Shown piece after piece: positions 1 through 38,267 of a stretch of 38,267 bases of DNA. A program made the translations under genes and the position numbers. The notes under the pieces are model-generated. The model saw only the letters and a list, made by a program, of their open reading frames with translations, made no database searches and had not been told where the DNA came from. Numbering within the stretch: position 1 is the first letter of the stretch; every line of letters begins with the position of its first letter. Where the stretch lies: the NCBI RefSeq assembly GCF_000003605.2, contig NW_003109083.1, forward strand, positions 476,977-515,243. The letters run 5' to 3'. This DNA comes from Saccoglossus kowalevskii (lineage: Eukaryota; Hemichordata; Enteropneusta; Harrimaniidae).

Positions 1-820
1 GTATAACTTTAGATTGACAGAGCATAACTTTAGATTCACGGGACATAACTTTAAATTCACAGAGCATAACTTTAGATTCACAGAACATAACTTTAAATTC
101 ACAGAGCATAACTTTAGATTCATGGAACACAAATTTTAAATTCACAGGACATAACTTTAGATTCATGGAACATAACTTTAAATTCACAGAGCATAACTTT
201 AGATTCACGGGACATAACTTTAAATTCACAGAGCATAACTTTAGATTCATGGAACATAACTTTAAATTCACAGGACATAACTTTAAATTCACAGAGTATA
301 ACTTTAGATTCATGGAACATAACTTTAGATTGACAGAGCATAACTTTAGATTCACGGGACATAACTTTAAATTCACAGAGCATAACTTTAGATTGACAGA
401 GCATAACTTTAGGTTCATGGAACATAACTTTAAATTGACAGAGTATAACTTTAGATTGACAGAGCATAACTTTAGATTCACAGGACATAACTTTAAATTC
501 ACAGAGCATAACTTTAGATTCACAGGACATAACTTTAAATTCACAGAGCATAACTTTAGATTCACGGGACATAACTTTAAATTCACAGAGTATAACTTTA
601 GATTCACGGAACATAACTTTAAATTCACAGAGCATAACTTTAGATTCCCGGGACATAACTTTTAATTCACAGAGTATAACTTTAGATTCACGGAACATAA
701 CTTTAAAATCACAGAATAAAACTTCGCAGGTCAAATCTTTATATTTGCATGAGAAAACTTTTAATTTGCAAGACAAATCCTTCTATTCGCAGTACAAGGC
801 TTTGACTCTCTATGTAGAGG
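1..820. repeat. 21-bp tandem satellite array, decaying at right edge
   Basis: About 34 copies of a 21-bp unit built on CATAACTTTARATTCAC run from the window start to about 715. Units alternate between a GATT type preceded by G and an AATT type preceded by A, so many copies form a 42-bp dimer. Common variants are CACGG, CATGG and GACAG at the unit end. One unit near 127-148 has an extra base. From about 715 to 820 the period persists but identity falls (AAAACTT, CAAATCTT, AAATCCTT), like the old edge of an array. Because 21 is a multiple of 3, both strands are open for hundreds of bases. These reading frames are a by-product of the period and I do not call them genes. The array probably continues to the left. 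Confidence 0.97.
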
Positions 821-8205: not shown

Positions 8206-11200
8206 AAAAGTCTTCTTAAACAAGGTCTTTACTTGGAAACTTGGAATACTGGCGAGATCCAGAAAATCCAGAAAATATATTGTCCCCTGTTTTTACCTTA
8301 TCAAGTATTGCCTTAAATAAATATAGTTCGAAAAGTGGTCACCAAAATGCGCCCGCTAAATCACACTAGAATGTGTAATCACTGTATGTTGATAATGAAA
8401 ATAATTTTGTTGGATACCATACTTTTCCAAGAGGAATATACATGTGAAAGGGTGGGGACTACAGCGTTTTCCGAGATAACAGTACAACACATTTATACTA
8501 AAGTATTTAAAGAATGGCATAATTAAGGCGAATACAAATGGGTGGAACGAGATTTAAACTTCCTGGAGATGGAATTTTAATGGACTATTTTAATTCTTAT
8601 TCCAGGTAATCAGTTTGATTTATTCCTAGAATGGAATTTTCGATTTCTGGTGAGTATGTCTTTGCTTTCCTGTGTTTTTTCAATTTCTGGCGAGTAAATT
8701 TGATTTTCTGTGACCAGTACTAAAACATAGATAATTGAAAAGAGTGTTTTTCCATCTGTATTTAATAGTTTACAGTGGCATCTAAACAATTGACCACATA
8801 TATCCATAAAGCTAAACCATATATAGTGTTATCCCATTAAACACTGAGCAAACTAATCTCGTTGCCATAATGGTATCATATTCAGGGTCGATTGAGTGCA
8901 AATCGCTGTATGTGAATCTTACCTGCTTTGCTACAGCTTACCGATAAAATGTGTTTGTGAAACATTCGTTTGAAAACCTCTTTCACGTGGTACAACATTG
9001 TGGTGGAAATGCATTCTGCTGTTCTTTTCAATATAGGATGTTTATTTTAACTGCGTATTTTAAGCAGTCTTCGGGTCTCCCGCTATCTTTTCATTTTCGA
9101 TGTAATTACCACACGATAACCCCGTGTTTCCTTCTCTCTAGTATCATACCAATGTATACATGTAAATGTACAAGTTTTCAAGTTGTAATCTTTATAAATT
9201 ATAAACGTTGTTATTGAAAACTTTCAGTCTTTGTTGAATTGTCGTGCTGCTCAGAAACAAATGCGTTTCAGTAACCAGAACATGTGAATCAGAATAATAC
9301 AAAGATCGTAATCCATTATTGATTATAAATATCAGTAGTTTGAAAAAGCTACATTTTTTTACAAGTTTTAAGTCTCCTCTTAACAGCATTTAATAACGAA
9401 GTGTACTTAATTTCTGATTTAAAACTATGAAAGAAATCACTCACTCTAAAATAAGGAATGAATGTACTTACACATAAACAACAAAACAAATATTGACCGT
9501 CATTTTTAACACTTAATTCTAACACGCCAATTCAAAATATGTTCAAAGACATAAAGTTATCAATGAAACGTTGAAGACTGTTCACAGTATCTTACATCGC
9601 ATTTTAAACGATGACATCTGAAGCAAACACAAATATAGTATATGTATTATACATATTGGATGATGTCATTATAAACGGCGTAAAAAGCAATTTCCTTGCA
9701 CGCTGAAAAAGCGTGTGTCGACAGTTTTGTAATGTCAGCCTATCACCATAGGCGCTTATTTTAAATTCAAAGTACACAGGTGCATGTACAAACACCAGCG
9801 CCGTAATTGAAAAGAGATAGAATAGTCGGATATGGGAAGATCCGTAACTATATGTGGTTGAGAGAGGCAAATACATAAAACATGCAAAACAAATCATGAA
9901 TGTTCAACCTTGAGACTGTTCATGATCACTTTGCTCATTAGTCTCGTTATTTATACTGAATACAACTTTAAGGTTATTTTCTGATAGTACCGGGGGTAAT
10001 ATTTTGTATTGTGGGAAACTTTAATAATATTTTTCGGGCACGTAGCGCGAGAAGAATGCTACTACTATTTTAAGCACTTACTCAAGATATATATAAAAAA
10101 ACTATTTATTTCGTTAATAGTGTTTGAGATTGTTTGAATCTGTAATGGTAAATTTGCAAATCAATTTTGAATGTGCACACAACCAGCACATTTCCATGGA
10201 CATTTCCAATGTAAGGAAGACGTCATGCAGTTGACTTTTAACGTTTGGTCGCCACTCGGAATAGTCAATAACAATGTTATTTACTAACATTCATTATTAT
10301 ACATCTGTCACCGCAACGCCCTAAGTTACAGGGTGCTGTAATTTTGCAGTATTTCACTGGGTATTTTAATTCTACCATATTAGGAAAAGCAAATTCCATA
10401 TATGGTATGTCTTTACATACGTGCATACTTTGCAGTATCCTTGTAATAACCTCATCTTATTACTTGAGTTTTTACAAAGTGGTCAACTGGCAAAAATATT
10501 GCGCTCTGTGTGCCGTTTATATTTGTTGGCCCGTTATTATTAGCACGAAGTCAAATGACACCAAATAGTGTGAATGGAATACCATGATTGTTACTGATCT
10601 GATGTGTCGGATTGAAATAAGTGCCGACATGTCCAACTCACTAAAACTTTACAAGAAATCACAGTTTCACTAGTACGTATGAGTTGTCATGCATAAGTAT
10701 TTAAATGATAATATTATAACATCGGTGTTTGTATGTCAATATCGCCAAATTTCAGTCACTCACGACGGGAGTAAGAAAATACAAAAACGTAATAAGTAAA
10801 GTTGCAGATGGAGAGAAATCACAAAACAAAATGTGAACAATGTAAGGATTGACATAATACAACTTAAACACGATAACAATTAGGGTAAATCTGTACATCA
10901 TAAAGTGCTTTTTTGAACATCGCCATTTAGATATTAAATCAAGTTGTCATTGTTAACAACCCTGATTTCACTCGCATTCTTTAATATTGAATATAATTTG
11001 CCTTGCCATTGAATAACGCAATATATGTAATAACCTGGTTACATTATTGACAACCTTTTAACATTTGTGTATACATACAAACATACAAAAACACAATGAC
11101 AAGGAATGCAAGTATGATTAACCCATGTTGTGCACGGTTTTTGCGCCAATCGTCAACTCAACTACTTAGTAAAAAAATAGAGTCTGTCCAACTACAACGT

Positions 11201-11252
11201 TAGAAGTCTTCATTGAAGTACGGGAGCACACCAAGTGGTTAATATAGTGGGT
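8206..11252. other. Gene-free AT-rich stretch
   Basis: No supported gene was found. A weak 49-bp direct duplication lies near 8640-8710 (ATTTCTGGTGAGTA and ATTTCTGGCGAGTA). Short frames at 8335-8526, 8610-8807, 8951-9217 and 9604-9897 lack splice context or motifs. Confidence 0.45.
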
Positions 11253-11420
11253 AATAAGAAATCGTAGCTCAACCAGAACTACCGACGTTTCGACAATTGC
11301 CTTCATTAGGATCAAACAACTGCTGGCTCCTGCGTTTTCACAGTCAGCAGTTGTTTGACAAAACGTCGAAAGAAATAAAATCTTGAAGATCAAGTTCTGG
11401 TTGAGCTATTATTTCTTATT
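11253..11420 (-). mobile_element. Foldback element with hammerhead-like core
   Basis: The outer arms 11253-11280 and 11393-11420 are near-perfect reverse complements (about 26 of 28 bases), ending in AATAAGAAAT and carrying GCTCAACCAGAACT. Inside is an exact 14-bp inverted repeat, TCAAACAACTGCTG (11312-11325) against 11345-11358. Read on the minus strand, the left half shows CTAATGA (11303-11309), then a short GGC-AATT-GTC hairpin, then GAAACGTCGG (11291-11282). This resembles the minimal hammerhead ribozyme core CUGAUGA...GAAAC...GUC found in terminal repeats of Penelope-like retroelements, with G changed to A in the core. The right half is a rearranged inverted copy. No protein-coding part is present. 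It could instead be an unrelated MITE. Confidence 0.6.
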
Positions 11421-13512
11421 ATCAACTACTTATTATATTATTTGTATGTGTTTGTATTGTACTCTGGCGTAACTACATTGATCGTGAAATATACGGTCGG
11501 CTCACCAGAGAACTATAGAGAACCTATACGTCTACATACCAAATGTTTAATTATAATTATAATATAATTAAATAGTATAATTTCAGTCATGTTCTATTAC
11601 AAATGATAAATAATATAATACTAAATAGCTTAACCTGAAGCATATTGTTTTGGCAAATGAATTCATGCAAAAATCAATTATCTTGCAATGGTTATGTCAA
11701 GAAATAAAGTCTACGGCACAATCTAAAAATCCGTTGAATTAAATGCATCTGCCGTCTTAACTCCAAATGATATGAACACGAACAATATTTTATTTTCCCA
11801 TGTCATAATTCAAATTCATCTCTGAATGCCCTAAGCAGTCTATAAATGCTCTACACAGTCTAGAATGTGTGTATTGCAGTAACAAATTCTCTTTATTTTT
11901 GCATTTTAAGTTACGATTCTAAGTTCATATCCGCATATATTTGGGACAATGAAAATGTGTCACACATTTTTCTAAATATTTTTTTCAAGTAGTTATAAGT
12001 TTAAATATTATTTGCAAGGCAATTAAATCATGTGTAGATTAAATGTATTGCATATAGATTAAAGTGTTTGTTATCACATTTATGATTATTATAATGAATT
12101 ATAAAAGAGAATGTAAATATTGTTCAATAAATGTCTCATTTTCGGCAGAAAAAACGCTTAGTAGCATGACGCCGAGACCAAAACTTAGGCAAAGGCCCTC
12201 AATGATGTTCAATGCTAGGTTGAAAATGCATGTTTTTCTTTGTCATAATTTTGATCGTTACAACGTATATACATATGGTGATAATAAATGTGTAGATATC
12301 ACATTATTTTAGATGAAATATCACAATAATGCTCAAATCTCCATTGACACGTATGGATAGTTGTCGTTTTATTAAATATTAATTGGTTTTTAACAGCCAG
12401 GTCAATGGTTCAACGACATATTTTTAATCAACCGTGTGTATACAAGCAAAGTAAACAATCGGGAATCACGATTTTTATTTTTTTTAAATGACATAGCGAC
12501 ATACCGTTATGTCAAAATATCTACTATACTTTTTAATTCACAAAGTTTCATTTATTTTGACATGCAGTTGATTTAATGTATGTTTATTGTTTTGTTATAG
12601 TTTATACCTCAAATACAACGTAATTCATTAATCTATTAAATATTTGCATGTTGATAAGTATGACTGCCAATTATAAATATATGATAAGGCGATTTAAATA
12701 TACAATAAGGTGATTCAAATTCTCATATTTGAGTCTAACTAAAACCGAGTAAACGATATCACATTACTTCGCTGGAATATGTATCTTCTATTCGTGTATG
12801 GCCTCAGGGTTAGCGAATTTGAATACTGAATCAGTTACAGATGATGGATTATCGCCGTTACACTCGTGTGCAGCGTGTGTGGCGTCTTAATATTAAATAT
12901 TAGTACAAAGTTGGTATGTGGTAAACGTATTTAGGAAATTCGAATGTCCAGTTAATAAATAAGTAAAATGATAACATCTATAACTTGAAAGCAATACAAA
13001 ATGTATTTCTCACAGATAACATTAATTATTAAATTATAACTATTATTATACACTACGTAAAATTAGCTCCAGAATACATAAATATTATGCTTTAGGCCTT
13101 TTTTGTATTTCTAGTACGCACAATTTCTAAGGTGATCTCTCAAAAAATCGCTAGTATTTTGCTAATTATTCGTTATTCCAAAGTCATGAAATACTGAAAG
13201 GTTCCACACTGTCAGACCGTCCCCAATTATTTCAGATCTGCAAAGAAACAAAAAGTGTTTATGGCATTGTGATTTGTATCCCTGCTATGTATCTTTTTGT
13301 ATCATGATGGATTATATTTTTATCCCTGTTGTATTCAGAATGTATTCAGAAAACTATTTTCTAGCTAACAATAACCTTGCCTGAAATCACCGATCGTTAT
13401 TTGTTCAACTGCACGACCAATCAAAATTAAATTAGGCGAATATGTGTGCTAGTTGGACTTTGGACGGGATGGCTGTGACTTCGTCGAAGTGTGGGTGGGA
13501 GGGTTGTTTGTG
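11421..13512. other. Gene-free AT-rich stretch
   Basis: No exon is supported. A two-copy 21-bp duplication (ATAAGGCGATTTAAAT and ATAAGGTGATTCAAAT) lies at about 12677-12718. The 82-codon frame at 12064-12312 shows no recognisable motif. Confidence 0.45.
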
Positions 13513-25522: not shown

Positions 25523-25593
25523 ATGACTATGCCTCCAGCCATAATCAATGTTGGTTTTATTTTCTTCATAACAACAGTATCGACCGGAGCAAG
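25523..25593 (+). CDS. Cys-loop anion channel, coding exon 1 (signal peptide)
   Basis: The exon encodes 23 codons plus two bases: a short MTMPP start, the hydrophobic core AIINVGFIFFITTVST, then GA and a split Arg codon. This is a typical secretory signal peptide, with likely cleavage near TGA|R. The donor AAG|GTGAGT is at 25594, and the two leftover bases AG join the first G of the exon at 32977 to give AGG. The first ATG has a weak context (T at -3). The second, at 25529, has A at -3 and may be the real start, trimming two residues. The signal peptide directs the receptor subunit to the plasma membrane with its ligand-binding domain outside. Identity rests on the phase match and on the two downstream exons. 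Confidence 0.75.
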
Positions 25594-26128
25594 GTGAGTC
25601 GATTAATTCACGCTCGATTGTACTTCGACATTACATATCGTATGCTTGTTCGTTGTATTTCTTTCAACAATGTCTTCAGATTGAAGCAGGAATCGGCGTA
25701 CGTCCCTGTGTGTTTGCAACGTATTCGGTGAAAAGAAAAGAACATCTAGATTTCGTTCGTAATCTTTCTAAAATTGACGGATAACGCTAATCGCTTCTCC
25801 ATGTGATAGGAATGAATGGGTGAAACCTCGATTAATAAACAGTCGCTGTTCACTATTGCGAGAACGTGGTCACATTTCCCTGTTGTAATCGCCTTACGAA
25901 AGTAACAATGACGTCTCTTTTGAAACTATTGCTTGTTCACTTTGTGAAATTGTATTTTTAAATTCAGTATTAACGATTAGATTAGTGGTTATAGACATTA
26001 GTTATTTTATAATTATAGATAACGAAGCTAATCATTAAGTAATAATGGTATGAAAATAATAATGTCATCGTTATTGTTCAACAATTGACCTTGAATCCTG
26101 AACATATGACCATGTCTCAACATATGTA

Positions 26129-26226
26129 ATATATACAGCACGGAAAATACGACAGGTATATGTCCCCCAATATCTCGACATACATTGGGGGACAGATATA
26201 TGTCGTATTTCCCGTTCTGTATATAT
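26129..26226. repeat. 98-bp near-palindromic hairpin (MITE or miRNA-like)
   Basis: Two arms of about 43 bases are reverse complements with few mismatches. The inner stem is GTCCCCCAAT against ATTGGGGGAC around a loop of roughly a dozen bases (about 26172-26183). The middle pairs AAATACGACA with TGTCGTATTT, and the outer end pairs ATATATACAG with CTGTATATAT. It is far better paired than other inverted repeats here. Its size suits a compact palindromic transposon remnant or a hairpin precursor of a small RNA. It lies inside intron 1. Two overlapping minus-strand frames across it are by-products of the palindrome. Confidence 0.8.
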
Positions 26227-27107
26227 ATAAAAACGGAAGATGTATTTGGAAACACACATACACACACATATGTATATATTATGATTTTTGTTCATGAATA
26301 CAGACGCGAATGCCCTTAATGTGCGATAATTTTTTTACTAAATGTCACTTACACTAACACTGTTATTAAATCGATATATTGTGCAATAAACTAAAAAGAT
26401 TCACATGTAATGATAGATATTGTATAAGATATTGCAATTAGTGAACTTCAAAAGATATCCCCGCTCATTAAAATCAGTTTAAAGAGCTCCTTTTTTTCAA
26501 TATTATACTGAATTAAAACCCCGTATTTGTTAAATGAAAATAATTCACTTGATACTACAGTTTATAACTAACCGACTAATCTGCCCGTTTAGTCGTGTCG
26601 CAGTCAGTATGACTGTTTCTAATTTACGGTGAGCGACCGGATATTGTGTAGGTTATTTTCAATTCAATTTCGTTGCAAGTCGACCGGTGTGTAACCTATT
26701 TCTAACGTGATGAATATTCAACGTTTAGACAAAATAGTTACATTTTAAATCGCAGGTTGACACGTAACTGGTGTCACTGTTCTTAAGTGATACAGTACAT
26801 ATATTGATTTAGTTTGTCCCTGCTTATACATTGTCACGCATTTACAGTTGCCATGTAAATATCCGTCTTAGACACAAATATAGAAATAATACAAACGTAA
26901 GATTCGATAAACATCACACTCACGATACTCCCTTGTGTATTGCCGTGCGTAATTCGCCACTTTTTTTTTTCTTTTGAACTATAGGTCAATTACGATTTCA
27001 GTTCTAAGAATAATTTTTTTTGAACTTTTCTTTCTTCATTACAAAATACTCATCAAATCTTGGAATAATGTAGCTACACAGCATCCAGTCAGTACACATT
27101 TATTCGA

Positions 27108-27124
27108 TCAGTCAGTCAGTCAGT
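27108..27124. repeat. (CAGT)n microsatellite
   Basis: Four consecutive TCAG/CAGT tetranucleotides (GATCAGTCAGTCAGTCAGTA) in intron 1. Confidence 0.8.
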
Positions 27125-28289
27125 ATAATGAGATAACTTTGATTGGCCTATAAATTGCATTTCAGTAATATAAACAAACTATCTGTCATATATTTCATTA
27201 TATAATTTTTTGAAACAATGATGAATTCATACATTTGAAGTGCCTGCGTCGGCTGCTGGTATATCGAGTAGATAACACGTCTTACAGGACAAAACACGTT
27301 ACTAACGTATCAATTCGTTGAACATTAATGTTTTGAGTGTACGACATGTTGTGCTAGTGTTCAAAAGCTCACAGATCAAAACAAAAACACATCGAAATTC
27401 AGGTCGGTACTACTACTTGATTAGTAAACATAACATTTGTAAGGCCGGTCAATGTAATGACAAGTTAGGCTTGATTAAGTCGAGACATCGATTGAGTAAT
27501 AAGAACGTGAAATCATTTTGATCATATCAAATTATTGCCTACTGCTTCCCTAGTTTTGTACTTAGGAGTGGCAATTCTATCACAAAGATGGTGAATTTTA
27601 AAATTCATATTCAATCTGTATATGTCTACAGGGCTTTCTTAGTGCGCATAATTAGGTAGTCTGCATATTACAATGAATTGCATTCTTGCTTGTGATTGGA
27701 CTAAATTACGTTGTGTTTCCTTGAGAAATCAACTTACATATCCGGTTGACCGTGAGACATTTACTTCATTCAGTCACAGGCATAATTGATTTTAAAATGT
27801 ACGACATGTGTGATTATATGTTTTATAGCGAGGCATTTAAACCTACTTTATGCATTTGACATAAATGACGCTTTTCATTTGCCTGTGGAAATATTTGATT
27901 ACGATCGACACTAAATTATATAGAAAACTACTGCGTATCATCAATATTAATATGACCTATTATGCAAATAACATAGAAATTACAGTTTTACATATGTCAA
28001 TGACTTGATATATTATATTATCATGACAAAATACATTGTCTGTTTTTTTTACACTTTTCGATTTTTATATTTTGCTTGAATATGTTAACTATTGAACGGC
28101 ATTATTTCATCACATGGCAGAGATTGTCATGATTACAATATCTTAATAGACAGAAACTGATGTAACTAATCTTGAAATGTGACATAACGCATGAGAGACC
28201 AAAAAAGAACGAAGTGTGTTGATGGTAACCCCAACACCAACTGCATTTACGTTGTTGCTCCCATGAACGTCTTCGTGAATAATTAACCA

Positions 28290-28314
28290 CGTGACGTAAT
28301 GCCCAGTGACGTCA
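28290..28314. promoter_or_regulatory. Adjacent E-box/CRE half-site and full CRE
   Basis: CACGTGACGTAAT is followed at 28307-28314 by a perfect TGACGTCA. The cluster lies in intron 1 of the channel gene and could be an intronic enhancer or part of a repeat. The match is exact; the function is inferred. Confidence 0.35.
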
Positions 28315-28737
28315 TATGAAACACACGTTATACGTGCGCTGGGAAATATTGTTCTACGAACAGATATGTATGTTCATTTTATTTATGGTTTCAGGATATG
28401 AGGTTTGTCAGGCGACATATAAAACATTGTTCATAAAATTAAAATACGTTTCTTTCATCGGTAAGCATACTCGCCAAAAGAACAATGGTATGGTAAACTA
28501 CCTCCAAAAATAATTCTTTAGATTCTCTTTGAAAAAGTTACATTGTTTTGAAATTGGAAACACATAATTTTAATACTTCACTGCATGATTTATTCGAAAA
28601 TAAATACTAATTTAGGTAACTATTTAAAATAATTCGTAATCGAATTGTGCTAGAAAGGTAGATATATAATTATATTGCATTATGTATTATGTTTAACGCC
28701 ACAACACACCATATCATAATACAATACTATAGAATTT

Positions 28738-28760
28738 ATTAGATTTATTTAAAATCTAAT
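28738..28760. repeat. Perfect 8-bp inverted repeat
   Basis: ATTAGATT and AATCTAAT flank a 7-base AT spacer in intron 1. Confidence 0.65.
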
Positions 28761-31700
28761 ATCACTTTACAGTCGTATATAATCGTGTTTTCAATTACTA
28801 CACTCGACTATACAATAGTGTAATATTGTTCATTTAAATGTTTTTTTCATTACCGTATCTGTGAAGGTCAAATACACGCATTCAGCATATATCTAACTAC
28901 ACAGAGGGCGTATTCTGCATAAAATTTAGATTAAATACATTGTTTCCCTGTTTCCATTATCATTGAGTATTTATGATTGCAAGTCGAATACTTGTCCCAT
29001 GCTGATCACGTTTCATCTGAAAACTACCATGGTATGTTATATCACTGCACAAAGTGCACATCAATGTGCTATTTCTGTAGCAATATGCTATATTGGGTAT
29101 CAATAATGTATGTGAGATAATTCATCCAGAACATCTCTAGCTTATTATAATACTAATACCTAATTTTATATAGTTATACTGACAAGCCGGTACGCGATTG
29201 TTCATATCGTACGGTATAATAATTGGACTACGTGAATGTTAAACGCACGTGTAAGTGACCAGTTAGGTAGGAGAACAAAACGTAACATCTTGAAGTCCTT
29301 GGTCATACTGCCCATCCTCGTACAAAAAAAAAAACACCTCGGCTGACAGTTTTTTCCGCATTGTTTTTTTCTTTCAGTTATTGATGTCCTCCGCCGATAT
29401 GTTTAGATGTACTTGGTCATTTGATCGAGTACGTTGCGCAAATAGTGTATATGTTTCCAACAACAATAAAATACTGATTGACAGCATATGTAAAGGGTTC
29501 CTCATCACATCACATTCATAGGTATATTTTACCAGTCATGTCATCTAATCCCCTATGTATAGCATATATTCACATTCTGTACATAAAATCTGTTCTTATT
29601 GCATACAAGCCAAGTGAAATAAAATAAATTTCTTTAAATAATTTTGTTATTTTCGCATGCAATTTAAAAACGCCACTTGGACGGTCATGTTTCAACGATA
29701 GTGCCATGTCTATGTAGGCAGCTATGCAACTAAATTAGAAACGATAGTAGTTACGTCACAGTGGGTTTTATACTTATTGCTTTATTCGATTTTATGTCTT
29801 GTAAGTGGGAGATAACGCAATAGTTTAATATGTCCTGTGGCAGTTAGTAATAGTCTGAAGTAGTGTGACAGGTACATTAAATAGAACTGGATATTCCCCT
29901 ATACTTTTACCACCATATTTATCACCAAGGTTATCATTCCAAGAACGGCATCATCATCATGTTCGTTTGATCTAGTTATTACTAAGTGTACAATTCTTAG
30001 TGATAAGATTTGTTTACATCATCCAAATCATAGTTGGTTTATTACACTATTAATGCCATTGTAATGATACATAATAGTCATAAGTTAAGTTTACATTCCG
30101 TTTGGTAAATTTGAACTGACTATTTCTCATTGAGGAAACAATACGTTGTGGCACTTCCTCGTTAGATAAGGTGATCTATATTGACGATTCCTTCTATTTG
30201 ATGTTATTATATTGCATTTCTAGGTCAATTACATATTTCACTTACTCAGTTGAAAAGTGTATGTTGCCAGTGTATGGCTATCTAAAACTGGGTCATTCGA
30301 CGTAATATAATGGAATTTAACTGCTCCTATTTATTAAACGTCCCTATAAGTTTGATCAGATTAGATTACTTGTGTAGCATCATTCATACACTTTTTAATC
30401 TGATGTTTTATACGTATATACACATGCAGGCTTCGTCATCATTAACTGATTTATATATTTGTGGACTGGACGGGATTTCATTTGTGGCATGCGTTAGATA
30501 GCCTAATAATCATCACTAGATCACAAGTAACGTAAAATTATTTGCACTTGTGGTCTTGTGTCCCATGAAATATCAGGGTTGCTCACGGGATTTAGACTTT
30601 AGTTGTCTATATATCCAATTTATCCAAGTAGCGTCGACAAACTATTCTCTAGTTATGATTAGTTAACCCACTGGGCTCCGGGATCTGACGCAAGCGAGAC
30701 CAGATTTATGCAGTGTGACAATATTTGCTGGAAATACGTCATGGTTATATTTACATGAATACTCTCGTGATTACCCAGCATTACTGAGTCCGAGCACGCT
30801 CGATCCTGCTACGTGACGTAATATATATGCACGGTAAGTTGGGTGTTTAGTTTCTGTGATCATATCCGGTACACACCCCAGCAAATAATAGCACAATACT
30901 AAACAAGCGGCATGAAGAGTGAAGTGGGAAATCGTTTTGAATCAATTTGACAGATTCACGTAATGAAAACTTCTGAGTGAACTCAGTAATAATACGTCTC
31001 AATATATGAACCTTACAACTTCTACTGTAAAAAAAGTAACTTCACAATCAGTAAAATGGATAATAATCAAAGTATCAACCCTCTATAATCAGATTCGAGT
31101 TATCAAGAGTGTAGGTTGGTGAATACCCGTATGGTATACACGTTATATTACATTTGAACCATGGCACATGGAAACACTTACATCAAGGAATTGTTAGAAT
31201 TCACTTCAAATTTAATATTAGACAGTGTCGTGTGTGTATTTTATAACTTGTAATTTATTTCAATAAACATTGCGTCAGGTACTCGTTTGTATAGAATCTA
31301 TTCGACCATTCTAACATGTCTACGAATGACCTCGCATCTATGTACGGTTTTTAATCATCCGCCGTTGGGACTTGTCACACCTTTGTAATTGATTATTGTG
31401 AGGAAATGTTTCTCTTTTAAGCTGGAGATACGCTAACCCACGCGTCTCAGGGACGGGAGCTTGCATGGTATAACATATCTCATCAATAAAATAAACTCAC
31501 TATTTGATCAGTGACGCAGTCTATCCATGTGAACACCATACTTACTGTACGATACCAAAGGGATTGGTTAGCAGATAAATAATAATACATACACTTCAGT
31601 CAACTTTATATGTTAATATATTAATTAATTTTGTTATTGTTATGTTTAGTTTTGTGTCATGTGTATCACATTTATAAAAAAAAATGATACGTAACTCGTT

Positions 31701-32719
31701 GAATGGAGTTTCCAACGTTATCGCCAAACCCATGGGCGCTTACCTAAAAAATCATAAAATGCTGAAATATTAATGATAGAAACTAGAATATGCATTCTAT
31801 TTTGTATATATTAACTATTAAACTAGCCGCCTGGATGCTTTGTCGATATACAGTACAGAATTTTGTTATTGAAATAAACCAATAATATTCCATAATTTCA
31901 CAAATTCGTAAATTTACCAGAGTGCAGGTGCTATTTGTTTGAATCGATTGATCGCCTCATTTTCTCGCTAATTTGCCGATTTTTCAGAATGAAGATTTAC
32001 AGATGAAACTGAAAATATATGATATATAAAAATTATTTAAACTCCTTAAAAATATACAGTCTGGAAATCAATAACGATACAAAGTTGTCGATTAGTTTGA
32101 CATGTACATTGTGAGGATTAAATTCAGGTCAAACCCCAGTAATCAGTATACAATAACACAATAGAACATTGCACGTGATGTGAATAATTACTTATTCATT
32201 CATTCGAAAGGGCGGATACAGTAATTAGAACAGACATGAACACGGGTATTCTCTTCTATTTTTGCTTTTAATTATCGATGCCACCAAGTGCCCCAAATTT
32301 CAATTAATATCTTGACTGATTCGTCGTGACTTCTTTCTCGTAAAGTTGATTACTGTTAACAACTGGACGTAGGTCATTATATGTCTTTGCACGATATAAA
32401 TACGGTGTTTTAATCTTACACTTTGTAACTGATATGGTAATATCACTGCTATATACGTGGTTAACGTTTTATCATCAGTGTTGTTGCGTTGAAAGCTCAG
32501 GTCAGAAATGATCTCTAAGAGTTCATTATCGAGGAAACAGATTTATATTAGTCAAATTGTTTGATATAATATGGTATAATGACAAGTATTGTCAAGTACT
32601 TATAAGTAGACATATCTAGACAGAATTGCAGCTGTGCGTTGATTACTTCTTGCCGTGTTATATAATTGGTCATCTGCTGATATAGATCAGATTTAAAAAA
32701 GATGTAAATATCGGTGACC

Positions 32720-32881
32720 ATGGTTACATGTGGGTACACAAACAATCGTTATTCAACTGACGCCCTTAATGAAGAAGTGTATGACACCCCGGAGCACTGC
32801 GTCTGTGTGAAAAATCAAAAGCTGTATAATGCTATACCAAGGTTGGTGGTAAGTGTGGCCAGTGTTCAGGTCTTTGTATGA
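32720..32881 (+). other. Small open frame, possible cryptic exon
   Basis: A 53-codon frame starts at ATG in a strong context (GACCATGG) and encodes a charged stretch, NNRYSTDALNEEVYDTPEHC, then VKNQKLYNAIPRLV, followed by a donor-like GTG|GTAAGT at 32849. The composition is more protein-like than nearby frames. It is not in the channel's family pattern and sits only about 95 bases before exon 2, in an intron. A 75-codon minus-strand frame overlaps it. It may be an element fragment or chance. Confidence 0.2.
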
Positions 32882-32976
32882 TGGAAAATGAATCTCTAAT
32901 GCTTCAAAACAATAGTAAATGTATGTGTCTGTAACTTGAGGATCAGTTAAACACTTTTTTCCATATCCATTCACAG

Positions 32977-33047
32977 GCATTCTGATGTTCTTAACAAGAT
33001 TTTACATGAGGGAAATTACGATCACGAACAAAGACCTTCGGCAGAAA
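32977..33047 (+). CDS. Cys-loop anion channel, coding exon 2 (N-terminal helix)
   Basis: A 71-bp exon between TTTTTTCCATATCCATTCACAG and GTAAGT. It starts with one base completing a codon from exon 1 (AG|G, Arg) and ends with one base (A) of the next codon. It encodes HSDVLNKILHEGNYD, then HEQRPSAE. This is the start of the mature extracellular domain in glycine and glutamate-gated chloride channels: the amphipathic helix (SD-L-K-L), then the YD-xxx-RP turn that leads into strand beta1. In most relatives an Arg or Lys precedes the RP by two residues (YDARIRP); here the turn is DHEQRP. The exon has no stop, and its phases match both neighbours, which is strong evidence for a real, intact gene. 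Subunit class (glutamate, glycine or GABA type) cannot be decided from it. Confidence 0.9.
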
Positions 33048-34756
33048 GTAAGTGCCTTAACTCGTGTTTTTCCCTCTCGTGTTTTCAGTGACTGGCATTC
33101 TTTCTAATAGAGAATATGTTCGTCATTAACATCGGTCACATCAAAGCAGTGAACGTAGAAAAAGGAAGTCATTATACACAACAATCTTCTATTCAGATTA
33201 AAATCGATTTCAACGAAAATCACACACTAGTAATGTTTGATAATATCTTGATCTAATCATTGGGTGTGAGGCTATGTTCAGATACTCACAACACGTGGCT
33301 CATTTGTGGATTTCTGAAATCAACCATGGTTGAGTGTACGATTCAGTATAGTAGAATGTAATTAGAATGTAGTAACCCTGAAGTTACTCGATTTGTTAGA
33401 ATAAAATTACTCACTGAAACCAAGGCCAACATATATTGTATGCCAATCGTAAAATATAGTCATTGTTAAGACCCAAAGATATCTCGTATATTGAAATCTA
33501 TTGAACACTCATATATAATAGTGCCACATAACTAAATTATACTAGCAGCCTATTTGGTGGGTTTAACAAAATTCAAACCCAATAATAACAACTGAAAGTA
33601 ATTATCTGCAGCAGCACTTGCAGCAATGATGTTATTATTATTATTCTCATTCGTCTACAAGATAAGGATCTGTCACAAGCACCATTTCTGGACAAAACTG
33701 TAAACTAACCTAAACTACGGGATTTAAACTCATTTCTAGTTGTACTCAGCCACGTTGTCTGTTTATCGGCAGATTTCGCCAGGTAGCGAGAATCAATAAA
33801 ATTCACTAGGGAAAAATCAGGCTTACTTTATCTGATATCAAATCTCTATATACTAAATCTGTTGTACATTTGAACTCATTACGCAGTGAGCGCGGTCGTA
33901 CCAAATACAGTATGAAAATAAACAGCGTGTGATTTTTATAACACTGCCAGGGGACATGGATCCTAGTTACATAGTTTATTCGTAGATTATTTCCTTTTTA
34001 TCGCGTGATATTAAAACGCAATAAAATAAATATTAGCACAGCTTTCGCTAAGCTCAGGGCATTTCCTAACGACTCGATATAATGAGGATCGCATGCATGT
34101 GTAATAGGCACACTATTCAAAATTGGGGATTTTGCTATCAACAGAATCTTAGTATTCAAATAAATACTGTTAGCAAATTACACCCGTAGTGTATAGGTAT
34201 ATCATCCTATCCTATTGGCTGACAATCACATTGGTGTAACTACGGTAACTGTTCAGTAATTGAAATGATGAACATATGTTTAGGCTGATTATAATCCCAC
34301 ATTATAAGGTGCTGAACTGCACTTACGTCATATTGGAATACGACTTAGAGGGTCGTATATTATTTAGGCTGTAAAAGCAGGTGTCACACACATGCATAGT
34401 AAACAAATTCACAATAAAAAAAAGTTCTTCATCTTGATTCGCAAGTCACACAAAAACAATTAAATCGCCGTAAATATGCAGTCTGTGATCGCCATTGGAT
34501 GACGTTAACGGGTACGATGATGGGATTACAACTGAGCTTAAAGGCCGTCTATATGCATATTGTTTAATGTGCATTATATTATTGGTATGTGAATATTAAA
34601 GGAATACCGTAGCATTAGTTGATAGACCAGGATAGAACCAGCTGCGATGTGTCGTTAGTAAAGTTATTCAAAGCGATACTGCTCTGTTTAAAGAATAAAA
34701 TACCTCCGTTTCAGTTCATAAAAACTGATACACATTCACTTAGACACACCCACTCA

Positions 34757-34793
34757 ATATGGGCAATGAAGTGATCCACTTCATCCCATATAT
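34757..34793. repeat. Imperfect inverted repeat
   Basis: ATATGGG-CAA-TGAAGTG pairs with CACTTCA-T-CCCATAT around a 3-base loop. It is a possible small hairpin within intron 2. Confidence 0.65.
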
Positions 34794-35377
34794 ATGACCC
34801 TCTTTACCAAAGTATGTATTGGAGGCAATACTGACCAGGCTATTGCAGCATTGACATCTTTATCCATTTACTACAAAGCTCATTCGGGGTGTATTTATTT
34901 AGTTATGTATTTATTACACAAACATGATACCATCTGTATGTCATGGTATTTAAAATTGGAATCTGGGTCACTCTATCTTTAGGGTTATGTTCGTGTGGAT
35001 TTGACAAACAGAAACTTGAAACACGCAATAAATAACACTAAACTACTAAATATATGCACGAATTTATTTGTCCCTTAATGATTTAATATTGTTATTTATA
35101 TTCGTTTTCCTGAATGTTTAGCCACTGTGTAGACGCTGACAAAAGTATGTTATTCAGTGTTAGTAGAATACATTTGTAATTTCCACACTCAAGCATACAT
35201 CAAGAGAAACCTGTACCGTTATCACACTGTCCATCGAGCTGTGCAATTGTCTGCAATTCCGTATAAACGAGTTCTGGTGACACAGTGCCATCAATTGTTA
35301 TAAGTGATTTTGTTCAGTCGTCAACACCAAGATCTTGGACAAAATTAAATGGGTTCAGCAAAAAGAACTAGAATCGC

Positions 35378-35391
35378 GTTGCTATGGAAAC
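35378..35391 (+). promoter_or_regulatory. X-box-like RFX motif
   Basis: GTTGCTATGGAAAC fits the RFX X-box consensus at every position and is followed by a GC-rich stretch (CGAGCGCTCTCGCTCTCAGC). It lies in intron 2. It could mark an alternative promoter, but no first exon is recognised. Confidence 0.35.
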
Positions 35392-37217
35392 CACAACGAG
35401 CGCTCTCGCTCTCAGCGCGGAGATTGTGAACACTGCACACTACCTGTTTCCGAACATTCAGTTTAATCATAAAGTCGTGCTAGTAACCGCAAAGCAGAAT
35501 TATTCCTAGATACAATGAATCGTATCCACCTGCAAAAATATAATGAGCATAATTTTGTACTTCACATACTACAGCAGTGTTATATTTGTTGCTAAGCTGC
35601 GCGATACTGAAGATGAATTCACCTTCGGTATATAAGTGCATGCACGTAATTTACAAAATTCACCGGTACAACGGGTTCGTGGAACATGTGTTGAAACTGT
35701 ACTGTTTAGTGAACAGGAAAATGTGTCCACTCCTAATCTTAATTGAAACCATCGGCATTATCAAATCAGATCTGCGTACGAGTGAATGACCTTTTAAACT
35801 GTGAACATAGTGTATGCAATTCGGTGTGGATTACTTCAGATGTGTTATGGTTCAATGTCTTGCTTATACATTGACGCATATACTACTGTGTATAAAAACA
35901 AAACTTGACTGTATGTTGTAGCATTCACGTTTAAGTAGGTTTCATGCTGTTTTACGTACCCACACAAAACGTGTTCAGCCGGAGTACAACCATGATAAAT
36001 ACGGGCTATTTGTGCTCGTATATTTTATTTCTGTGATTAAATTACTGGGTACATGAAATAAAAGCAATTGTAACATCAATGTTTCGATAGTGACAAAACT
36101 ATTAAATCTGTTGACTTTCCACTGTGTGGTTTCCCCGTGGAATTGTTAGTGATAAATGAGAAGTCCATAGGAAATGAGTACGGTGATCAGTGTATGATAA
36201 TAAAAATCATCAAAGTAACGGCAATCCCGAATGACTCAATAAATAATATCATGAAAATAAAATCCTTACCATTATATGCTCCCAATAGACCTCTGAAATA
36301 TTAGCAGATTTACATTCTGTGCTGCATTCTAATCGATGACAGATAATCTTTGCCAAGTTCATTAATAGGTCAAAAGGTTTGGTATGACAGGTTTACACGA
36401 TAAGATCTTCGCATTTTTTTTTGATATCGTTGATTTGATAACATATTGAATGAAGAAAATACAGTGTGGCTTTCATACGGTTTTACCAATGTTAAATGGA
36501 TGCGTAATATTTGACATTGACTATTTTGAATGCCGTATTTTAGGTAAATTTTAACATTTAATTTTTTTGAACATTTTTTATGTAGTATTGTTAATTATGA
36601 ACAAAATAAACGTAATTCCGTAGTGGCTGTAGGTCGTGATCAAAATATTGAACAAATATGAATTGGTAAAAAATATTCCAGTTCTTAAGGTGACAGAAGT
36701 TCACTATTGACGTTCAACATATTAACCGTTGATTGATTTTGTTATAATTATTATAGTGGTAAGTGTCAATTATGCACACGATTACCCAATTCACTTATGT
36801 ATATTAAATATATCAAGAAAAACCTATCTATGTTTAAAAATGGATTCCGCTCTTTCGTTTTTATTTGTTCAATGACGTTGTTATAAAATCGAAGGGGAAT
36901 CAGTTTGTATTTCTGTCAGATAAATAATTTGCAAGCGCCATGTTACTGACGATCAGTAAACATTGTTACCTGTGCAGTCATTGGAAAGTAAATTTACAAT
37001 TTTACGCTTGTTATCACATTTATTCATCCATATCTCCCGGCTTGTCTACACAATTCTACGCTCGTGACAGTGTTTAGTAAGCAGCATCAACTGTAAAAAA
37101 ATCAATGTTAGGAATTTGCCTCCCATGTTTGGCATTTAAGGGCATATGATCTTGTACGTAAATGTATATGAACGTATGTATTATATTCGACTTACACGAC
37201 TCCTTCGTTAATTTCAG

Positions 37218-37285
37218 TTGGACCAGTTAATATATCCGCCAGTCTGTTCATCACAAGTATACATACCCTATCCGAAATTTCTATG
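37218..37285 (+). CDS. Cys-loop anion channel, coding exon 3 (68-bp beta1-beta2 exon)
   Basis: A 68-bp exon between TTAATTTCAG and GTAAGT. It takes one base (A) from exon 2 to complete Ile and ends in phase 0 after ATG. It encodes GPVNISASLFITSI, then HTLSEISM. This matches strands beta1 and beta2 of the ligand-binding domain in glycine, GABA-A and glutamate-gated chloride receptors: a GPV, alternating hydrophobic residues, F-I/V-x-S, then a SE/AE-x-x-M end. Vertebrate GABA-A and glycine receptor genes carry an exon of the same length and content, usually followed by one of about 221 bp beginning Asp/Glu-Tyr. That next exon is not found before the window ends, so the gene continues to the right. 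The Cys-loop itself and the membrane segments are outside the window. Confidence 0.92.
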
Positions 37286-37877
37286 GTAAGTACCAATTTT
37301 TTAACAACACCATGTTATTTCATATTAAAAAATATTCATATACTCCTCCGTAACCTACTATCAATGCATTCCATTTAAATTAATATGGTCAATTAGGCAC
37401 ATGCTATTCTCCCATCTTTCCAAAGAAGGTATCGTAGAGAATACAATATTCCCGATGGACATAGGTATCACGTCAAACTTGGGATCATTGCTTTCTTAAG
37501 TTACTGCATCGTGAATATTTTACAGACATATAAACTCAGAGATACTAGGCTGTGTGGGAATTGGAAATCACTGTACGCAAATTCTAAGTGAAATGTATCT
37601 TCCAATTTTGCCATATATACTGCAATCAATTTTAATTGTCAGTGAATGGCCGAATACAACATACATTGTTACACGTGGCAGTAGCGCTATACACATGGAT
37701 ATATGTGCGTCCAAAGATAAGGATATTATATGCGTTACATTTCAATGTGGCATGTCAGTCAAGTAGAAACGATCAATGATATTCATATAGGGATCGTATC
37801 AACTTCGCACATATCATTTATATAATAACCAATTACCTGCGCGGAGTATTGTTTGTATCTATTCGATTTTACTGATA
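37286..37877 (+). other. Start of intron 3 (no exon seen)
   Basis: No acceptor followed by an Asp/Glu-Tyr frame was found. The 70-codon frame at 37554-37766 does not resemble the channel's next segment and begins at GTG. Confidence 0.55.
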
Positions 37878-38267
37878 TCACACCGTTACATACTGAGCCC
37901 ATAGCACCACACATTTACATAGTATCACACTATTTCAGTTACATACAGGGCCAATAAAATCACACTATTACAGTTACATATAGGGCACATAATATCACAC
38001 TATTTCAGTTACATATTGGGTACATAATATCACACTATTACAGTTACATACTGGAAACATAATATCACACTATTACAGTTACATACTGGGCACATAATAT
38101 CACACTATTACAGTTACATACTGGGCACATAGTATCACGCTATTACAGTTACTTACTAGGCACATAGTATCACACTATTACAGTTACATACTGGGCACAT
38201 AGTATCACGCTATTACAGTTACATATTGAGCAATAAGTATCACATTATTACACAGCTACATACTTAG
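37878..38267. repeat. 35-bp tandem array running off the window end
   Basis: Units start at 37925, 37960, 37995, 38030, 38065, 38100, 38135, 38170, 38205 and 38240, each beginning TCACACTATTACAGTTACAT and ending in a variant of GGGCACATAATA. A diverged half-related copy with an insertion lies at 37878-37924. Variation is small (CACGC for CACAC, ATTTC for ATTAC, CATAGTA for CATAATA) and greater at the left edge. There are no unique spacers between copies, so it is not CRISPR-like. It lies within intron 3 of the channel gene. Confidence 0.96.

Follow-up and report, generated by a model that had tools for sequence, protein, structure and literature searches.

We analysed 38,267 nucleotides of Saccoglossus kowalevskii (the window; contig C346, positions 476977-515243, of the 572-Mb assembly) together with the surrounding contig from 397001 to 635000. 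Three small exons on the + strand of the window are very probably the 5′ coding end of a gene, here called gene W, for an anion-selective Cys-loop receptor subunit of the glycine receptor (GlyR)/GABA-A type, and its product would be a chloride channel subunit. The gene appears to run from the window exons through an intron bearing a minisatellite to exon 4 at contig position 541875, and then through exons 5-9. Its features within the window, in window coordinates, are as follows.

25523..25593, + strand: exon 1, 71 bp, end phase 2; MTMPPAIINVGFIFFITTVSTGA, predicted signal peptide
32977..33047, + strand: exon 2, 71 bp, end phase 1; HSDVLNKILHEGNYDHEQRPSAE, N-terminal helix and Y-D..RP turn
37218..37285, + strand: exon 3, 68 bp, end phase 0; GPVNISASLFITSIHTLSEISM, beta1 strand
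25594..32976, + strand: putative intron 1, 7,383 bp, consensus borders
33048..37217, + strand: putative intron 2, 4,170 bp, consensus borders
37286..38267, + strand: start of putative intron 3, continuing beyond the window to exon 4
37917..38267, no strand assigned: 35-bp minisatellite in intron 3; the window ends inside it at an assembly gap

The original prediction, made from the letters of the window, had placed three exons of 71, 71 and 68 bp, and our reading of the lengths, phases and splice borders was the same. The junctions have the phases AG/G, A/TT and 0, the donors are GTGAGT, GTAAGT and GTAAGT, the acceptors before exons 2 and 3 are ATTCACAG and AATTTCAG, and the joined exons give 70 codons free of stops. 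That they hold a 5′ half of the gene was right as to the end but not as to the proportion; 70 residues make about a sixth of a full length that we estimate at 400-450 residues, the borders of exons 8 and 9 in the M3-M4 loop being approximate. Exon 1, which has an uncharged hydrophobic core and a second in-frame ATG at window position 25529, is the least secure of the three.

When the 70 residues were compared with the PDB, only glycine receptors were matched (17 of 17 rows to E 10, best 0.0035), and in Pfam the sole match was Neur_chan_LBD (PF02931; E 0.0043, under the curated cut-off). A search with the translated join had been expected to return Cys-loop receptors, and so it did; since its E-values were weak, candidate-scoring controls were carried out. 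All AG..GT candidates in the window with the right phases and similar lengths were scored against two reference sets, namely the paralogous exons, with the window's own exon left out, and a human GLRA1 sequence. Against the paralogues exon 3 scored 82, the runner-up among 251 candidates on both strands reaching 32; against GLRA1 alone the scores were 53 and 28. Exon 2 scored 43 against the paralogues, with 32 for the next best place among 566 candidates and a tie from an 89-bp version of itself that uses the same acceptor and a poorer donor, and it scored 32 against GLRA1 alone (runner-up 21). In 60 Markov resamples of the + strand, the best exon 3 score was at most 40 with either reference set, and the best exon 2 score was at most 40 with the paralogues and at most 30 with GLRA1. 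For exon 1, 272 ATG..GT candidates of phase 2 left four rows past the filter, two of which were the two ATGs of exon 1 itself; its donor was the best among the passing candidates (6 of 7), and one other passing candidate was slightly more hydropathic (2.76 vs 2.67). No second copy of exon 1 was found in a whole-genome protein search.

The probable exons 4-9 of gene W lie at contig 541875-549668. Exon 4 starts with Asp-Tyr, is 224 bp long and lies 26.6 kb right of the window (window-relative position 64899); an exon of roughly 221 bp starting with Asp/Glu-Tyr had been predicted just right of the window, and the Asp-Tyr exon does exist, but neither its exact size nor its nearness had been foreseen correctly. 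Exons 1-7 join into 294 codons in one frame, with no stop or frameshift and with consensus splice sites, and a stretch for M4 is present at contig 549567-549647. With the start of exon 8 added, the joined 322 residues matched GlyR alpha best in the PDB (1.9e-86), followed by GABA-A beta1 (8.7e-77), and no glutamate-gated chloride channel (GluCl) was among the best 60 of 239 PDB rows. The joined gene also matched PF02931 (2.8e-41) and PF02932 (2.7e-27), both beyond their cut-offs, so that the anion-type assignment made from the window exons, which by themselves match glycine receptors, was borne out over the longer translation. The best match, zebrafish GlyR alpha1 (PDB 3JAD), extends over 295 residues and shares with gene W the Cys-loop (two cysteines 13 residues apart; CHLYLQRFPMDKQTC in W), the loop B motif ESFGY and the motif PAR, and GlyR alpha is also similar in exon order. 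The Cys-loop and the Trp-x-Pro motif of loop A, here WTPD, lie in the downstream exons beyond the window. Pro-Ala-Arg before M2 is a mark of the anion-selective branch (GlyR/GABA-A/GluCl), and every exon 7 that was read (genes A, B, W, E and F) has it.

The other genes named here belong to an array of paralogues. The assembly holds at least 159 matches to PF02931, and nine genes were compared: A, B, C, W, E and F on the + strand of C346, G and H on its − strand, and I on contig C3381. All nine have an exon 3 of 68 bp. In the scan of C346:397001-635000 for exon 3, six 68-bp exons scored at least 54, and none of the others, out of 2190 candidates over the two strands, exceeded 23; as four of the six had belonged to the reference set of the scan, the leave-one-out control described above gives the fairer comparison. 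This stretch also has six 224-bp exon 4s, each starting with Asp-Tyr or Asp-Phe, and all exons of both kinds are on the + strand; exon 5 (83 bp) and exon 7 (230 bp) were read in five genes each. A, B, E and F each own exons 3-7 (exons 8-9 of F are beyond the examined stretch), and exons 2-4 of gene C precede the left of the two N-gaps that border the window (C346 458712-476976 and 515244-528331). With the exons of the other genes so accounted for, window exons 1-3 were paired with the sole unclaimed exon 4, at 541875.

Exon 2 was best read as 71 bp with identical phases in seven of the nine genes (W, C, E, F, G, H and I), and in six of these seven (all but I) alternative splice sites give versions of the exon that score equally; exon 2 of B is 68 bp, and that of A is unsettled between 80 and 95 bp. 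Among the paralogues, candidates for exon 1 were signal-like with a fair donor in C, H and I, weak in E and absent in G. The genome search with the 70 residues gave nine matches at E ≤ 10, which were the three exons themselves and six further exon 3s, five of them on C346 and the sixth on C3381; the exon 3s of A and B were missed by this search and found by the contig scan. For exons 4, 5 and 7, all 10 pairs of five genes had a proportion of synonymous differences (pS) of 0.74-0.90 and of nonsynonymous differences (pN) of 0.11-0.24, and the window exon 3 compared with eight paralogues gave pS 0.46-0.98 and pN 0.15-0.38, pN being below pS in all eight. As silent sites are near saturation and amino-acid sites are not, the genes seem to go back to old duplications and to have been kept under purifying selection. 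The family would be an old one with eight genes on C346, a ninth on C3381 and perhaps a tenth on C1000.

The passage from exon 3 to exon 4 is the point at which gene W could be divided. Intron 3 is 27,613 bp as assembled, and the gap falls within it; exons 4-9 for the window exons, and exons 1-3 for the exons at 541875-549668, might both be hidden in these 13 kb, and the spans of exons 4-9 in the array are 8-10 kb in A, B and W (22 kb in E). We nevertheless consider two genes quite improbable. The main reason is the minisatellite, whose identical 35-bp unit occupies 0.35 kb on the left edge of the gap and about 3.8 kb beyond it (contig 528333-532150); with one unit on both edges, the gap lies most likely within one repeat array, and a single intron of 27.6 kb most likely separates exon 3 from exon 4. 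Furthermore, the scans detected neither an exon 2 nor an exon 3 in the 13.5 kb that precede exon 4 (contig 528332-541874), and the joined frame stays open with the GlyR alignment running through the exon 3/exon 4 junction. A decayed or orphan 5′ fragment is very improbable as well. It is suggested by intron 2, which measures 4.2 kb in W against 0.2-1.8 kb in the eight other genes, but a long intron is not unique to W (intron 3 of gene F is about 11 kb), the 294 codons over seven exons are intact, and the low pN relative to pS holds for exon 3 and in the downstream exons.

Some points weigh against the assignment of the window exons to one functional gene. About 13 kb of intron 3 is gap and could hide exons; exon 1 is a prediction, and the splicing of exons 1-3 into one message is deduced from their borders and phases. 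The six non-self matches of the genome search were individually weak (E 0.03-4.2). Exon 2 taken alone is near noise, its score being barely over the best random one, so that exon 3, the chain of phases and the paralogues carry the case, and it is also less constrained, with pS from 0.67 to saturated and pN 0.33-0.57 over six paralogues.

We then compared the agonist-site residues of gene W with those of GlyR alpha. In the alignment the carboxylate-binding Arg of loop D is replaced by Ser, the loop C Thr by Leu and the loop E Ser by His, and the cysteine pair of loop C is replaced by Gly and Gln (paralogue A retains two cysteines in loop C). A second cysteine pair around loop C is a feature of glycine receptor alpha subunits. 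The ESFGY motif of loop B and the Tyr/Tyr of loop C are retained in W.

The loop D position was tallied over 40 anion-type exon 4s of the genome, six from the array and 34 others, these being the ones among the PF02931 matches listed that span the exon 4 part, with shorter and nicotinic acetylcholine receptor (nAChR)-like rows excluded. Arg is present in 25 of the 40. It is absent from the whole clade that holds the array, for which ten members is an upper figure, C1000 sitting in it on a long branch (Ser in five, Thr in two, and Ile, Val and Pro in one each), and from five further exon 4s, four on C451 (L042, L045, L057 and L060) and one on C3285 (L056), which have His (three), Lys (one) or Tyr (one). 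On the best exon 4 tree, rooted at midpoint only, two changes account for the absence of Arg; the well-supported branches force only one, so that the C451 and C3285 exon 4s may represent a separate loss or share a single origin with the array clade. Anion-type exon 4s on C2600, C4668 and C2442 (L046, L048, L051-L053, L055, L059 and L062; some maybe haplotype copies) form another group, whose members resemble one another closely; it keeps the Arg and has W-V/I-PPL in place of WxPDL.

These substitutions bear on two more specific identities that gene W could have had. A true glycine receptor, orthologous to vertebrate GlyR alpha and gated by glycine, would agree with the best PDB match, with the retained ESFGY and with an exon pattern like that of vertebrate GlyR and GABA-A genes; the changes in loops C, D and E described above argue against it, as does the exon 4 tree, in which GLRA1 groups with other genes of the genome at modest support, and we regard it as improbable. 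Even less is to be said for a glutamate-gated chloride channel, which we take to be very improbable. The motifs RPS and LFITSI do resemble GluCl sequence, and many invertebrate anion channels are GluCls. As defined in PMC4338433, however, a GluCl has the loop D Arg together with an Arg in loop G (ecdysozoan) or loop A (lophotrochozoan), and the same source describes that R95A at the loop D site of AVR-14B abolished glutamate potency. In gene W the loop D Arg is absent, and Thr occupies both the loop G position, in exon 3, and the loop A position, the two sites being placed by us; GluCls were also missing from the leading PDB rows as given above. The subtype, which the original prediction had left undecided, can thereby be narrowed to a subunit closest to GlyR alpha and next to GABA-A beta, with no Arg in loop G or loop D.

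Among better known subunits, the loop D Arg is described as absent from HisCl1, ACC1, MOD-1, LGC-55 and GABA-A beta (PMC4006026). GABA-A beta, which by the same account takes part in the GABA site with its principal face alone, thus resembles W at this position, although its overall match is weaker than that of GlyR alpha. HisCl1, ACC-1, MOD-1 and LGC-55 are presented there as amine receptors whose ligands have no carboxylate, and we liken them to W by this description only. The same applies to the orphan anionic classes of lophotrochozoans; many anionic subunits are reported from molluscs, annelids and a flatworm, many without the amino-acid binding motif and apparently forming several new classes (PMC4338433). 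The expansion of molluscan nAChRs, as described in PMC6896357, likewise arose by tandem duplication of Cys-loop receptor genes, but those genes are often intronless, whereas the array on C346 is of the anion type and intron-rich. Neither anionic subunits of the orphan type nor tandem arrays of Cys-loop genes are therefore without precedent, and the array of W is a further case; no publication title describing it was met in the literature searched, although this does not prove that there is no such paper.

Taken together, the residues suggest that the principal face would still cage an amine and that the complementary face would no longer hold a carboxylate. On one option the subunit would answer a ligand without a carboxylate, such as a biogenic amine or a choline-like compound; on the other it would, like GABA-A beta subunits, serve in heteromers solely through its principal face. 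That one of these two options holds seems to us about an even chance, and a homomer of W gated by glycine, GABA or glutamate is probably not to be expected. Several observations count against such a functional reading. W and A have an Arg two residues further along loop D (SLRW and IERW), which could compensate. The fork that holds the array clade has support of 91/81, below the threshold of the tool, and the exon 4 tree (74 columns) places GLRA1 with C693:168622 and C184:31072 (93/79), outside the array family. That the Arg was lost, rather than never had, would follow from its presence in three reference receptors.

Within the window, a tblastn search with eight exon queries for exons 4-9 of W or of the upstream gene C gave nine matches at E ≤ 1, the best at 0.011 and all of at most 24 residues, and none was credible. 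When 10 of the 55 open reading frames of at least 70 amino acids were scanned against Pfam for other genes, one weak match was obtained (E 0.059); no tRNA was found in the window, and Rfam gave no match at gathering score. Repeats were also seen. A 21-bp minisatellite of about 34 copies lies at the left edge (window 3-724) and is absent from the sequence beyond the left gap. Positions 10277-10409 carry a dispersed repeat with at least five matches elsewhere on C346 (75-88% identical, both strands), and 11245-11428 an inverted repeat with 36-nt arms that are 112 nt apart and 89% complementary. In intron 1, an almost perfect inverted repeat of 96 nt at positions 26130-26225 (z −10 relative to shuffled sequence) may be a small miniature transposable element.

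As a gene, W is ordinary, being one more anion-type Cys-loop subunit, and it is hard to annotate, because its first 70 codons are spread over three small exons, the introns are long and an assembly gap falls within a minisatellite. It is conceivable, though we think it unlikely, that a clade of some ten subunits, old and derived from GlyR, quit the amino-acid transmitters for some different signal, uncharged or cationic, with the array on C346 as its birthplace. If true, this would be a parallel to the nAChR-derived receptors that turned chemosensors in other animals. Of wider use than the single gene is the conserved family, which has the parts of a channel and lacks the carboxylate clamp, and which thereby offers a defined group of orphan receptors in which new inhibitory ligands of invertebrates could be sought.

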